A DNA stretch of 21,670 nucleotides, from positions 1-21,670 of the IMG/VR virus record IMGVR_UViG_3300020123_000329; one strand, given 5' to 3'. The translations under genes and the position numbers were made by a program. The stretch comes from a virus. The notes beneath the pieces were generated by a model, which ran no database searches, was not told the DNA's origin, and was given only the letters and a program-made list of their open reading frames with translations. Of this stretch, positions 2,791 to 20,317 are shown piece after piece (the stretch's first letter is position 1; each line of letters starts with the position of its first letter).

Positions 2791-3489
2791 CTAGCCCGCA
2801 AAGCCGCGTCCCTGTGCAAGCACAAAGTCAGGCTGTACCGTCACTGCAGGACTTGCCAAGCCTGTTGCGTTGCTGCTCACGCGTGCAAACGTGATGATGT
2901 CTTTCGGATGGATTGCATTCGCAGTGTAGGTCGTTGCAATTTCATGGGGAACCAAGGCAGTCTCATTGGTGCCACTGGCATAAGTCACGCTTGCAAGCGG
3001 TGCCGACACCACGTTCCATGTGCCGCTATGAGTAGTTGCAAAGACGGCCGTGAAGGTCGTCGCAGTCACGGCGGTAACATAGACCGTTTCAGCGCTTGCC
3101 CCGGTATCTACCAAGAGAGCCGTGCCCACAAAAATGTTGGTCATAGCTGCCGGGGTGATGGTCACCGACCCAGCTGACCCAACTGCCGTCGCTGTGGTCG
3201 TGCTGACGAGCAACACGCCCGCCCGTTTGTGCAAGATCTGCCAGGAAAAGTTGTTGGTCGCCGCGCCGGTCAGTGTTGTCTCGGTTGTCCACCGAACAAG
3301 GCGCATCCTCAATGCGTCGAGCGGCAATGCGCCCGCTTGGCCTGTCCCTGCAAGCTTTGTCAAATCAGGGACGGCAAAAAGCACATGCTCATAATCGCTC
3401 GCAGAGCCTGCAGAAGCAGACGGGATCAGCACAGGACTGCCAAGCGGGAAATCCCGATGCAATCCAAGAAATTCATTGAGAAGGGCCAT
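2791..3489 (-). CDS. Head module structural protein with duplicated beta module
   Basis: This 232-residue protein has ATG preceded by GGAGG at a spacing of five. The N-terminal 90 residues are unlike the next gene's product, whereas residues 95-163 (VTITPAAM, IFVGTALLV, SAETVYVTAV, FTAVFATTHSG) match residues 32-101 of the protein encoded just downstream. The N-terminal half includes a strand-rich SDYEHVLFAVPDLTKL stretch of the kind found in small head proteins. It is separated from the 175-aa gene upstream by two bases and lies in the capsid-distal operon. A capsid decoration or head-stabilising role is plausible by context. No catalytic motif, coiled coil or membrane segment is visible. 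Confidence 0.5.
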   Translation of the reverse strand: MALLNEFLGLHRDFPLGSPVLIPSASAGSASDYEHVLFAVPDLTKLAGTGQAGALPLDALRMRLVRWTTETTLTGAATNNFSWQILHKRAGVLLVSTTTATAVGSAGSVTITPAAMTNIFVGTALLVDTGASAETVYVTAVTATTFTAVFATTHSGTWNVVSAPLASVTYASGTNETALVPHEIATTYTANAIHPKDIITFARVSSNATGLASPAVTVQPDFVLAQGRGFAG

Positions 3490-3491
3490 GG

Positions 3492-4019
3492 CTACCTCCG
3501 TCGTGCCTCTGCTGGCAAGTGCTTCTCAAGGCCTGCAATGAGGGTTGTGAGTCGCTCTGCGCCAAGCTGCGCCGCAAGGGCGTCAAGGTCAACCCCTGCA
3601 AGCTGAGAAGCAAATCTCTCAACAGGGACAGGAGTGATTCCTGTTGCCTCGCAGAACTCTTTTTCGCCGACATCGCGAAGCTTGCCATCGTTACCCGATA
3701 CCTGATCAGGCAGAATGGCCTGAATAGCGATCTTGCCGTAGACCTGATCGAGCTTTCCATCGGGTCGCGTGTTCTGTATCCAGTGCTTGACCACGCCATA
3801 GGGCACATGGCGAGCAATGCCATCAAGGAAAGGCGTCTTGTCTACAAACTGCTTGTATCCAGGGGTCACCTTGTTCCACCCGTACAGGACAGTGACCTTT
3901 TCGTGGTCCTCAAATTCTCGTTTCTTAGGTTTTTCCAGGACAGCAGTGGCAGCCTTGCTTTGCGTTGGCTCGTCCTTCTTCTGCTCGTCCTCTGATGGAT
4001 TAGGTTTCTTTTCTGACAT
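3492..4019 (-). CDS. Unknown head-module protein with charged N-terminal tail
   Basis: This 175-residue protein starts at ATG with AGGAG eight bases upstream. The first 40 residues are a disordered, Lys/Glu/Pro-rich tail (MSEKKPNPSEDEQKKDEP). A compact central region follows, containing VTVLYGWNKVTPGYKQF, then helices ending in AAQLGAERLTTLIAGLEKHL. It is the first gene after the major capsid gene, a place often taken by small head-completion or decoration proteins. I do not recognise the family, and the function is not assigned. Confidence 0.5.
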   Translation of the reverse strand: MSEKKPNPSEDEQKKDEPTQSKAATAVLEKPKKREFEDHEKVTVLYGWNKVTPGYKQFVDKTPFLDGIARHVPYGVVKHWIQNTRPDGKLDQVYGKIAIQAILPDQVSGNDGKLRDVGEKEFCEATGITPVPVERFASQLAGVDLDALAAQLGAERLTTLIAGLEKHLPAEARRR

Positions 4020-9231: not shown

Positions 9232-9791
9232 CGTTGCGTCTCCCCATTTATTGCATCAAATACCAATCGTTCTGCATTACCCAATGCCTCTCGAAGACCC
9301 TTGATGTGTTCCCCTGCCATCCATACATTGTGAGTTTTAAGATCACGCACAACCATACTGCCTAGCATTTCGATCGTATTTGCTTCAATCCGCATTTGAA
9401 ATGCAACGCTTTTCTCTTCTTTGATCTCCTTGATCTCAATGGTCGCTTTGCGCTCTTTGTCCTCTTCCTTGATGGCAGAGACACCATTGACCAGAATGTC
9501 TGACAGGAAGACCGTCCTCGTTTTGAAGTCCTTGCTGCTTTCACTGGTATAAATAGGTGTTACACTTGGCAACGTCTCGACCTCTGGGATATCAGGGGAA
9601 GAGACGATGACCTCGATGTATCCATGCCCCTTGAAATAGTGACCGCCGCGTCGTACCTGCTCAACTGCATACCGATCAGGGAGAAGCAATGTCTCCTTGA
9701 GCTTGTCAAGGTCAATCAATGCAGGGTCAATGGTGAGATCAATGCGATCTTCGAGCCCGATGGGACTTACCTGGATAATTCCTTGTGCCAT
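9228..9791 (-). CDS. Unknown 187-aa protein between portal and minor head genes
   Basis: The protein starts MAQGIIQVSPIGLEDRIDLTID and has alternating strands and helices, with a Lys/Glu-rich segment near residue 115 (IKEEDKERKATIEIKEIKEE). Its C-terminus is a helix (EHIKGLREALGNAERLVFDAI). The stop overlaps the GTG of the minor head gene as GTGA, implying translational coupling and perhaps joint function. No catalytic motif, membrane segment or known family is recognised. Confidence 0.45.
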   Translation of the reverse strand: MAQGIIQVSPIGLEDRIDLTIDPALIDLDKLKETLLLPDRYAVEQVRRGGHYFKGHGYIEVIVSSPDIPEVETLPSVTPIYTSESSKDFKTRTVFLSDILVNGVSAIKEEDKERKATIEIKEIKEEKSVAFQMRIEANTIEMLGSMVVRDLKTHNVWMAGEHIKGLREALGNAERLVFDAINGETQR

Positions 9792-10064
9792 TTATAGCCA
9801 CCTCACTGTATTCTTCTCAATGCTATATCGTTGCCGTGCCTTGCTCCCATGGCAGTGCAGCGGTTGCGTGGATGAAACCGTGCCATCCTCATGCAGGGTG
9901 ATTTTGTCCTCATCTACAGGTCTGAGATTGCCACAACCAGGACAGCGAATCATCCACCCTTGATGTCCCTGAGATTTCAAGGGTTGTCCAATGTCACCTC
10001 GTTGATAATCAAAGATAGCCTTGCTGTCAGGGACGACGGTGACGGCGGTGATGTCTTGGGTCAT
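9792..10064 (-). CDS. Small zinc-binding protein, resembling DUF6527-type phage proteins
   Basis: A 90-residue protein with a metal-site pattern: CPGCG at residues 41-45, then HEDGTVSSTQPLHCHG and a C-terminal SIEKNTVRWL. A CPxCG knuckle, a Ser/Thr-Pro-rich turn and a final Cys-His before a strand ending in a hydrophobic residue recall small phage zinc proteins of the DUF6527 type, but I cannot confirm membership. GGAG stands eight bases before the ATG, which overlaps the upstream stop by four bases. The function is unknown. Protein or nucleic-acid contact through the zinc site is possible. Confidence 0.45.
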   Translation of the reverse strand: MTQDITAVTVVPDSKAIFDYQRGDIGQPLKSQGHQGWMIRCPGCGNLRPVDEDKITLHEDGTVSSTQPLHCHGSKARQRYSIEKNTVRWL

Positions 10065-18030: not shown

Positions 18031-18059
18031 ATCTTACCCCTTTCAGCTCAGTCTGTCAA
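18031..18059 (-). promoter_or_regulatory. Promoter of the middle operon
   Basis: The minus strand shows -35 TTGACA (18054-18059) and -10 TAAGAT (18031-18036, 4/6) with a 17-base spacer. It would start transcription about 30 bases before the first gene (17993). The -35 lies inside a 29-bp sequence that recurs with three mismatches at 20903-20931. Confidence 0.6.
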
Positions 18060-18251: not shown

Positions 18252-18466
18252 GAAAAAGCGAGGCCCCTTCACTGGAAAGCGAGGAAAGCAGTGAAGGGGC
18301 CTCTATGCAAATTTAGGGTATAGTATCCGCCACTGAATCGAACAGCCTTCCCACTAGTGTGGGCGTGCCCCTTACACCTACGGATGTGGTTTGCTCCCAT
18401 TTGATTATGGACAGTTAGGAGCGACTGTCACATAAGCCTCGGTCCCTTTTATGGGGTTTCGGCTTT
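18252..18466 (-). ncRNA. Candidate free-standing structured RNA of about 210 nt
   Basis: Between a strong promoter (18471-18500) and a perfect terminator (18253-18303) there is no plausible ORF on the minus strand, but many nested helices. These are AAGCC/GGCTT (18465-18461 with 18438-18434) and ATGTG/CACAT (18433-18429 with 18388-18384), the latter enclosing ACAGT/ACTGT (18428-18424 with 18415-18411). GCTCC in the loop of that stem (18422-18418) can pair with GGAGC (18397-18393), which makes a pseudoknot. TCCGT/GCGGA (18384-18380 with 18330-18326) encloses a GTGT-GGG/CCC-ACAC hairpin (18377-18357) and a T-loop-like GTTCGATTC (18343-18335). The last part resembles a reduced cloverleaf but lacks a canonical anticodon loop. 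I do not recognise a known RNA family. The function is unknown. Confidence 0.5.
18253..18303 (-). terminator. Intrinsic terminator of the structured RNA
   Basis: A perfect 14-bp stem (18260-18273 with 18290-18303, GAGGCCCCTTCACT / AGTGAAGGGGCCTC) and a 16-nt loop are followed on the minus strand by GCTTTTTCC. The same tail follows the terminator at 16264-16304. It closes the RNA candidate and insulates the next operon. Confidence 0.85.
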
Positions 18467-18470
18467 CGCC

Positions 18471-18500
18471 ATGATAGCACTGATCATCAAGGCTTGTCAA
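18471..18500 (-). promoter_or_regulatory. Strong promoter of the structured RNA, inside the end of a gene
   Basis: The minus strand reads TTGACA (18495-18500), an 18-base spacer and TATCAT (18471-18476, 5/6) preceded by TG one base upstream (extended -10). The -35 lies inside codons of the 18487-18888 gene, and the -10 follows its stop. Transcription would start near 18464, at the first base-paired nucleotides of the RNA. Confidence 0.6.
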
Positions 18501-18888
18501 TGAATTGCCTCGTAAACTCACAGAAGAACCAATCATTACTATTGTCCGTCTGAATCATGCCCTCAACCTTGCCAAGCAGTGGATGGTCCTTGATCTTCTC
18601 AAAGTCTTCCTTGGTCATCTCCTTGCATTCATCGATGGCTATTTCAGGGATATCGCCGATCACAGAGCGTATATCCTTCTCTGCTTGCTCAATGCTCATT
18701 CCATGCAAGTCACTGATTTTTACAGCTTCTTCATGGATTGCCTTGGCAGAGATAAGCAAGGAGTTGTCCGCTCTTGCTTTCTTGATTTCCTGCCATCGTT
18801 CATAGGATCGCAATGTGCCATGACGGTCACTGCGAGCCAATGTGTGGCGACGGCTGTCCTTCAAGATCTTACGTTGCTGTTCATGCAT
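18487..18888 (-). CDS. Unknown protein with helical and acidic segments
   Basis: The start chosen is ATG at 18886-18888 (MHEQQRKILKDSRRHT), which overlaps the stop of the upstream gene (ATGCATGA) and has GGAG ten bases before it. A 33-codon longer frame would overlap the neighbour by more than 100 bases. The 133-residue product has a basic N-terminus, a helix (AKAIHEEAVKISDLHGMSIE) and an acidic helix (DECKEMTKEDFEKIKD). It ends FFCEFTRQFIDKP. No family is recognised. Its last codons contain the -35 of the RNA promoter. Confidence 0.5.
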   Translation of the reverse strand: MHEQQRKILKDSRRHTLARSDRHGTLRSYERWQEIKKARADNSLLISAKAIHEEAVKISDLHGMSIEQAEKDIRSVIGDIPEIAIDECKEMTKEDFEKIKDHPLLGKVEGMIQTDNSNDWFFCEFTRQFIDKP

Positions 18889-19072
18889 CTTCTTTGATCT
18901 CCTTGCGCTTTCTCTGCATTTCCAGGTCTTTCCGTGTGGGTCTCCCTGACCTCTGATCAATGAAGTCCTCTTCATCGATGACGCCACGGGCTATCGGGGC
19001 CGACGCATTGAGAGACCGTGGGCGCTTGGCTTTCGATGGGAACAGGGGTCCTTTGAACATTGGTTCTGGCAT
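18881..19072 (-). CDS. Small unknown basic protein
   Basis: The start is set at ATG 19070-19072 (MPEPMFKGPLFPSK) because GGAG stands seven bases before it. The 63-residue product is basic, with RSGRPTRKDLEMQRKRK near its end, and is likely helical there. It lies two bases after the stop of the previous gene. No known family is recognised. Confidence 0.45.
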   Translation of the reverse strand: MPEPMFKGPLFPSKAKRPRSLNASAPIARGVIDEEDFIDQRSGRPTRKDLEMQRKRKEIKEDA

Positions 19073-19524: not shown

Positions 19525-20154
19525 TTAGTCTGTACTGCTACTATGTTTTTCGAGATATAGAGCCGCTTTTCTCAGGATATCAGGGCTGTCATGGACATGT
19601 CCAAGTGCCGTATTGCAATTATGGCAAAGCAATTCACGGACAAAGCCTGTTTTGTGATCATGGTCAACATATAAGCGTTTTCTTTCCTGGGGTGGGCTGC
19701 CACATATGGCACAAGCGCCACCTTGCTTAAGCAGCAGAAGTTCGTATTCTTCGTAGGCCATATTAAACTTATATTTAAGCTGTGTCCCCCTAGCATACGC
19801 AACATAACATTGTTCACAATGGAGCCGACATTCTGGACCGAATTCAGAAAGAGGCTTTGACTCTTTGCACGTCTTGCAAATTTTAAATCCTCCCAACGCA
19901 TCAAGCTGCTTCTGCTTTTTGTATTCATGCTCCTCTGCACAAGAGACACACATAAAAGGGACATGCTTCACACCTGACTTGACTTCACGGAATGACGTGA
20001 CGGGGTAAATTTTCTTGCAGTGGTAGCAGAACTTTTCAGGGACTGCGGAGGCAACATTGTTATTCAGCGGTATTTCATTGGACGCTACTTCACAACTCAG
20101 CGCATCAAAATCAAACGTGCACTGAATGGAGGTTTGATGTATACTACGTTTCAT
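19525..20154 (-). CDS. Recombination endonuclease VII-type HNH nuclease with extra zinc clusters
   Basis: The start is set at ATG 20152-20154 (MKRSIHQTSIQ) because the promoter -10 at 20260-20265 excludes the longer frame. AAGGAG stands 12 bases before the ATG. The C-terminal 90 residues match the endonuclease VII family: MAYEEYELLLLKQGGACAIC, then LYVDHDHKTGFVRELLCHNC and NTALGHVHD. Key residues are C148/C151, D164-H165-D166-H167, C177/C180 and N181. Two further cysteine clusters precede it (C43/C46 with C69/C72; C93/C96 with C113/C116). T4 endonuclease VII resolves DNA branches during packaging. The same role is inferred here, though free-standing homing-type nicking is an alternative. Location beside the origin-like region and upstream of the packaging genes fits a DNA-processing role. 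Confidence 0.8.
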   Translation of the reverse strand: MKRSIHQTSIQCTFDFDALSCEVASNEIPLNNNVASAVPEKFCYHCKKIYPVTSFREVKSGVKHVPFMCVSCAEEHEYKKQKQLDALGGFKICKTCKESKPLSEFGPECRLHCEQCYVAYARGTQLKYKFNMAYEEYELLLLKQGGACAICGSPPQERKRLYVDHDHKTGFVRELLCHNCNTALGHVHDSPDILRKAALYLEKHSSSTD

Positions 20155-20220
20155 GGTAAGGGTCAACTCCTTGTCATCAGCTCCGGGTTGTTTCAGCAAC
20201 GCCGGAGCAAACCATTTTTG

Positions 20221-20246
20221 GCAGGGATAGCAGAGATTATCCCTGC
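20221..20246. promoter_or_regulatory. Dyad just downstream of the HNH promoter
   Basis: GCAGGGATA and TATCCCTGC are perfect 9-bp inverted repeats separated by 8 bases. They begin 14 bases after the -10 (20260-20265) in the 5' leader of the HNH transcript. They may be a repressor operator or an RNA hairpin. On the plus strand the repeat is followed by TTTT, so it could also stop rightward transcription. Confidence 0.45.
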
Positions 20247-20259
20247 TTTTGTATCTATC

Positions 20260-20288
20260 ATTATCACACACTTGCGGTATTTTGTCAA
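20260..20288 (-). promoter_or_regulatory. Strong promoter for the HNH operon
   Basis: The minus strand shows TTGACA (20283-20288), a 17-base spacer and GATAAT (20260-20265, 5/6) with TG one base upstream. This is the best match to a sigma70-type promoter in the window. It excludes the longer HNH ORF start at 20292 and leaves a leader of about 100 nt. Confidence 0.7.
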
Positions 20289-20317
20289 GCATTAGGACAA
20301 AAGTAAAGAAGTCTTGC

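Follow-up and report, generated by a model that had tools for sequence, protein, structure and literature searches.

The window analyzed here, that is, the complete 21.7-kb IMG/VR virus record, represents a fragment of a tailed phage genome which encodes a terminase composed of TerL (PF03237/PF17289) and TerS. Among annotated phages, the TerL of the window is closest to that of Tunturi_4 (38%), followed by that of the Thermus P23-45 group (30%), and the window phage is a soil-type phage and kin to Thermus phage P23-45. Searches with the terminase and with neighboring proteins provided the relatives used for comparison, namely, seven IMG/VR records, while scans of GTDB genomes with TerL and with a 123-amino-acid (aa) protein yielded no relatives and a BLASTN search of the RNA locus against 50,697 phage records returned no match. 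The genes around the RNA unit described below are transcribed leftward, and the unit is located between an open reading frame (ORF) of 166 aa, for which no Pfam or PHROG match was obtained, and a block leading toward the genes encoding TerS, TerL, the portal protein, the protease, and the major capsid protein. Also upstream of the unit, an Endonuclease VII/HNH protein (PF02945) is encoded at positions 19525-20292 (-). The locus comprises the following features, of which the RNA elements are predicted.

18487-18987 (-): upstream ORF, 166 aa, with its stop codon inside the promoter of the RNA unit; relatives in L005 and L007
18471-18500 (-): promoter, with -35 TTGACA (18500-18495), an 18-bp spacer, and an extended -10, TGC-TATCAT (18479-18471)
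18434-18465 (-): 5' helix, AAGCC/GGCTT with inner CCC/GGG and the internal loop GAAA/ACCGA
18393-18429 (-): H-type pseudoknot, with S1 GACAGT (18429-18424)/ACTGTC (18415-18410) and S2 GCTCC (18422-18418)/GGAGC (18397-18393)
18325-18385 (-): tRNA-like cloverleaf, 61 nt, with acceptor ATCCGT/GCGGAT, D arm GTG-TAAGGGG-CAC, and T arm GCTG-TTCGATT-CAGT
18253-18303 (-): intrinsic terminator, 15-bp stem GAGGCCCCTTCACTG (18303-18289)/CAGTGAAGGGGCCTC (18274-18260), then GCTTTTT
18031-18059 (-): separate promoter for the downstream genes, TTGACA-N17-TAAGAT, also present in L007 (4242)

An initial annotation, made from the sequence alone, had interpreted the unit as a gene dedicated to a phage non-coding RNA and equipped with a promoter and terminator of its own, a proposal which is now backed by synteny. 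The promoter that it described matches 11 of the 12 consensus positions with the TG in place; such a match alone proves little, because a scan for promoter-like sites found six where 3.9 were expected. The promoter is retained in the syntenic records L005 (3392), L007 (3451), and L010 (1793), with the -35 box falling within the 3'-terminal codons of the upstream ORF, which ends in IDKP-stop in the window and in IDNP-stop, LDKK-stop, and VDKP-stop in L005, L007, and L010, respectively. Transcription is predicted to start at approximately position 18464, thus defining a unit of approximately 210 nt that extends to position 18253. The terminator likewise consists, as described, of a stem with a T run, the stem being a perfect 15 bp in length rather than the 14 bp originally reported, and it covaries with that of L007, two pairs being changed on both sides. 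The view that the unit harbors no supported leftward ORF was also upheld, as just two frames of 43 aa are present and gaps of 1 and 2 nt in the alignment of the window with L007 break frame.

For the complete RNA, the folding energy corresponds to a z of -3.4; this value was discounted, since it derives mostly from the terminator. Energy alone is no proof of a structured RNA, and evidence must therefore come from comparison. The number of helices counted earlier, at least seven, does not exceed chance expectation, the fold without the terminator having a z of -1.1. No known family had been recognized, and in agreement with this, Rfam yielded nothing for the window at either gathering or relaxed thresholds. 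ARAGORN and Rfam were also negative for the window with respect to a tmRNA, in which tRNA-like ends would enclose a tag ORF. An exact 18-base match in L006 was dismissed as chance, since it falls in an apparently coding region, and a phi29-type pRNA was rejected, there being no Rfam match and an ordinary terminase consisting of TerL with TerS. The more general suggestion of a packaging RNA is not supported: the phage possesses an ordinary P23-45-type pair of TerL and TerS, and among relatives the RNA has given way to another in L005 and is missing from L010.

The same genomic slot was compared across syntenic relatives. In L007, the same promoter and terminator flank a tRNA-shaped gene which scores 39.8 bits with RF00005 (cut-off, 29 bits) and which ARAGORN reports as "tRNA-???", with no real anticodon and with the acceptor GCTGCATG/CATGCAGC followed by CCA. 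The slot of L004, a record which starts at a contig end, contains a 5' helix, an H-type pseudoknot, a degenerate tRNA (23.9 bits, RF00005), and the terminator. That of L005 holds a promoter, another pseudoknot-type RNA, and a terminator; its body (3420-3530, equivalent to L002 6342-6452) is predicted to form a long pseudoknot in which the stem GCAGGG-GACT/AGTCCCTGC is crossed by CGGGTAG/CTACCCG, and it aligned to the body of the window RNA no better than chance. L010 retains the promoter, a short stretch, and the terminator, with no tRNA part. At the level of sequence, the slot is fixed while the predicted RNA is variable, promoter and terminator being conserved around changing bodies, and the putative window RNA is a composite of L004 and L007 features. 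Because it has been replaced in L005 or lost in L010, the RNA is not essential.

Additional features were observed among the relatives. L009 and L010 are apparently overlapping contigs of close phages, and tandem GCAGTGCAGACCAT repeats occur within or after the gene encoding the 123-aa protein (L010 3148-3252 and L009 1-80). Two records carry group I introns (RF00028, approximately 53 bits), at L066 2102-2357 (-) and L080 3551-3755 (-).

The 3' half of the unit contains the cloverleaf at 18385-18325, which had been overlooked initially. A "reduced tRNA-like molecule" had been mentioned among the possibilities, and this description fits the 3' half by way of the relatives L007 and L004. The T-loop, TTCGATT, is canonical and conforms to TTCRANY, and the hairpin at the anticodon position, CCCAC-ACTA-GTGGG, possesses a 4-nt loop, ACTA, with no anticodon. 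A readable anticodon in a 7-nt loop with U33, as expected of a tRNA, is absent from the window RNA. A descriptor combining the cloverleaf and the T-loop, the lower length bound of which was relaxed once after its first version (inner length of at least 40) had missed the window, gave a single match across both strands of the window, at 18385-18325. The same descriptor gave a single match in 428 kb of the relatives' strand sequence, this being the gene of L007, and every match across other phage loci totaling 1.09 Mb was an ARAGORN tRNA, save for one false match encountered twice in overlapping loci. The 3' part of the window RNA aligns with the T arm, acceptor end, and trailer of L007 with a score matched by 11 of 2,000 shuffles, and in a structural alignment by hand of just three sequences, the only ones with a tRNA-like part (window, L007, and L004), 8 of the 12 acceptor, D, and T pairs exhibit two-sided changes with pairing kept. 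These comparisons demonstrate that the predicted 3' domain is homologous to the tRNA-shaped gene that occupies this position in L007, with the acceptor, D, and T arms and the T-loop being kept.

RF00005 did not match the window even at an E value of ≤10 (gathering cut-off, 29 bits), and the RNA is considered tRNA-like rather than a tRNA because it lies below the detection limit of the tRNA model. CTA is encoded at 18323-18321 in the window, at the place where L007 has CCA. The cloverleaf as drawn exceeds the predicted energy minimum by 3.5 kcal/mol under a model without tertiary elbow contacts, and in the thermodynamic ensemble the acceptor and the anticodon-position hairpin dominate while the D and T arms of the cloverleaf are absent.

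The 5' portion of the RNA is shared with L004. The first 60 nt of the window RNA align with L004 over the shared GCCGAAACC..GGACMGAGGCTT, with a score matched by 6 of 2,000 shuffles; the 5' helix is common to both (CCGAAACCC..GGACAGAGGCTT), its internal loop is conserved as GAAA/ACMGA, and in both sequences the pseudoknot directly follows GAGGCTT. The fold z of the 5' helix domain is -3.1. The pseudoknot originally described as ACAGT/ACTGT crossed by GCTCC/GGAGC is present, the first stem being in fact 6 bp (GACAGT/ACTGTC), and a pseudoknot of such size arises by chance in 1.7% (window) and 1.5% (L004) of shuffles. That of L004 has the same topology and place with different letters, 7 of its 10 pairs being changed on both sides relative to the window in a structural alignment of these two sequences by hand. 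A helix ATGTG/CACAT, said to enclose the pseudoknot, is present as letters and was dropped because two of its bases, an A-U (18385-18384), are shared with the acceptor stem and because it is absent from L004. An IMG/VR pattern scan with GCCGAAACC..GGACMGAGGC returned six matches, all of which were coding-like by inspection and had no cassette around them, which leaves the window and L004 as the only known sources of the 5' domain. Considered together, the aligned sequences establish a predicted two-domain plan, with a 5' helix and H-type pseudoknot, a 3' tRNA-like domain, and then the intrinsic terminator.

We propose, with a probability of about one-half, that the locus is a self-contained phage gene for a non-coding RNA of approximately 210 nt, which was derived from a tRNA, gave up its anticodon, and is now a tRNA mimic. 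Its origin would lie in a phage tRNA gene that abandoned decoding. Host tRNA-handling proteins would bind or process the acceptor/T-arm elbow, and RNase P would probably be the first enzyme to process it, at a 5' edge near position 18385; alternatively, the partner may be a tRNA-binding or tRNA-cutting enzyme, defense nucleases included. The part played by the pseudoknot leader would be to protect the RNA or to direct it.

A number of characterized systems resemble parts of this plan. Plant-virus tRNA-like structures of the TYMV and TMV type are located at the 3' ends of RNA genomes and possess a pseudoknotted acceptor. They share with the window RNA the coupling of tRNA mimicry to pseudoknots, whereas the latter is encoded by a gene of its own in a DNA phage and combines a cloverleaf of normal order with an upstream pseudoknot. 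As in tmRNA (RF00023), a tRNA-like domain and pseudoknots would occur within one RNA, but the window RNA has neither a tag ORF nor an acceptor that would join the two termini of the full-length molecule. It resembles phi29 pRNA in being a structured phage RNA of the 100- to 200-nt range and differs in its lack of an Rfam match, in its association with a TerS/TerL motor, and in its replacement or loss among relatives. In the case of T5 tRNA-Lys and the PARIS system, phage tRNAs with altered anticodon arms resist anticodon nucleases (PMC11455837). The window RNA would similarly be a tRNA-derived phage gene with an altered anticodon arm and a retained acceptor and T arm; unlike T5 tRNA-Lys, it is devoid of any anticodon, so that it could not replace a cut tRNA in decoding, and it has a 5' pseudoknot domain as well as its own promoter and terminator.

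In all seven records, a second cassette composed of a promoter, a short RNA, and a terminator is present directly upstream of TerS, with a body that varies; these cassettes have the motif TTGACANCCCNTGCTATCATAGA in common, their terminators covary, and several of their bodies have CATTGA..TCAATG closing stems.

Window, approximately 16391-16260 (-): second cassette
L007, 5447-5590: second cassette
L003, 3063-3207: second cassette
L004, 2885-3005: second cassette
L005, 8158-8280: second cassette
L009, 2908-3070: second cassette
L010, 6082-6245: second cassette

A 203-aa HTH protein adjoins TerS and is present as two tandem copies in L003 (1750-3055). In the more distant relative L029, the non-coding stretch upstream of TerS (approximately 600-1250) contains several AGTATA(A/C)CA elements in tandem, each with a T-run hairpin immediately after it, an arrangement which looks like a promoter-hairpin array.

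The lambda 6S RNA, corresponding to the pR'-tR' late leader, is a short unit made up of promoter, RNA, and terminator and situated ahead of late genes. The strongest rival to a tRNA mimic, itself unlikely, is a late-operon leader of this type, in which a host-RNA polymerase (RNAP) promoter would read into an early terminator, a phage antiterminator would permit passage into the late genes, and the body would be mostly a by-product. The window unit is comparably short, is likewise composed of promoter, RNA, and terminator, and precedes terminase and structural genes that share its orientation; the second cassette before TerS, whose body is similarly fluid, also favors such a leader. Furthermore, the late genes of P23-45 are transcribed by host RNAP (PMC10770324), and gp39, which acts on T. 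thermophilus RNAP, is a reported antitermination factor (PMC6624301). Conversely, the window RNA differs from lambda 6S in its tRNA-like content and in that downstream genes have their own promoters after each cassette (at 18059 in the window, and TGCTATACTT before TerS), and the conserved tRNA-like and pseudoknot folds of the bodies are not needed by a plain leader.

A decaying phage tRNA gene, half decayed in L007, further decayed in L004 and the window, and lost in L010, is a doubtful alternative. The anticodon is lost in L007, L004, and the window alike, the 3' end of the window RNA is without an encoded CCA, RF00005 scores fall from 39.8 (L007) to 23.9 (L004) to none (window), and the RNA is absent from L010. 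A pseudogene would nonetheless have to be reconciled with pairing that survives many two-sided changes, a surviving T-loop, an added pseudoknot domain common to the window and L004, and a promoter and terminator still near consensus. It is improbable that the RNA is an unrelated structured regulator, such as a base-pairing sRNA, which resembles a cloverleaf by chance: the tRNA model does miss the window, and the body is not unusually stable (z = -1.1), but the syntenic homology with the tRNA-shaped gene of L007 and the very low false-match rate of the descriptor argue otherwise. Finally, an attP-type tRNA fragment through which an integrase would restore a host tRNA upon integration is very improbable, as the tyrosine recombinase (PF00589) found in one 75-kb relative (G007 9432-9920, +) stands alone, with no integrase match in the window and none in the remaining six records, the L007 gene is a whole tRNA shape with its own promoter rather than a 3' fragment, and a cassette of the kind present in G007 (that of L010) has no tRNA part.

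Returning to the tRNA mimic, a decoy role against tRNA-cutting defenses may be speculated by analogy, and its appeal lies in the ability of phage tRNAs with altered anticodon arms to escape such enzymes (PMC11455837). A more far-reaching and rather unlikely proposal is that of a new phage RNA class, i.e., an anticodon-less tRNA mimic with a 5' pseudoknot domain, carried in its own late-region cassette, subject to fast turnover at a fixed genomic slot, and serving to decoy or inhibit host enzymes that act on tRNA, e.g., tRNA-cutting defenses.

The purpose of many phage tRNAs is debated, and some of them defeat tRNA-cutting defenses. If the proposed reading is true, phage tRNAs would be convertible to non-decoding effector RNAs through loss of the anticodon, retention of the elbow, and gain of a pseudoknot leader. 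The slot, with its constant promoter and terminator and its changing RNA, is a place in which to seek other phage RNAs.
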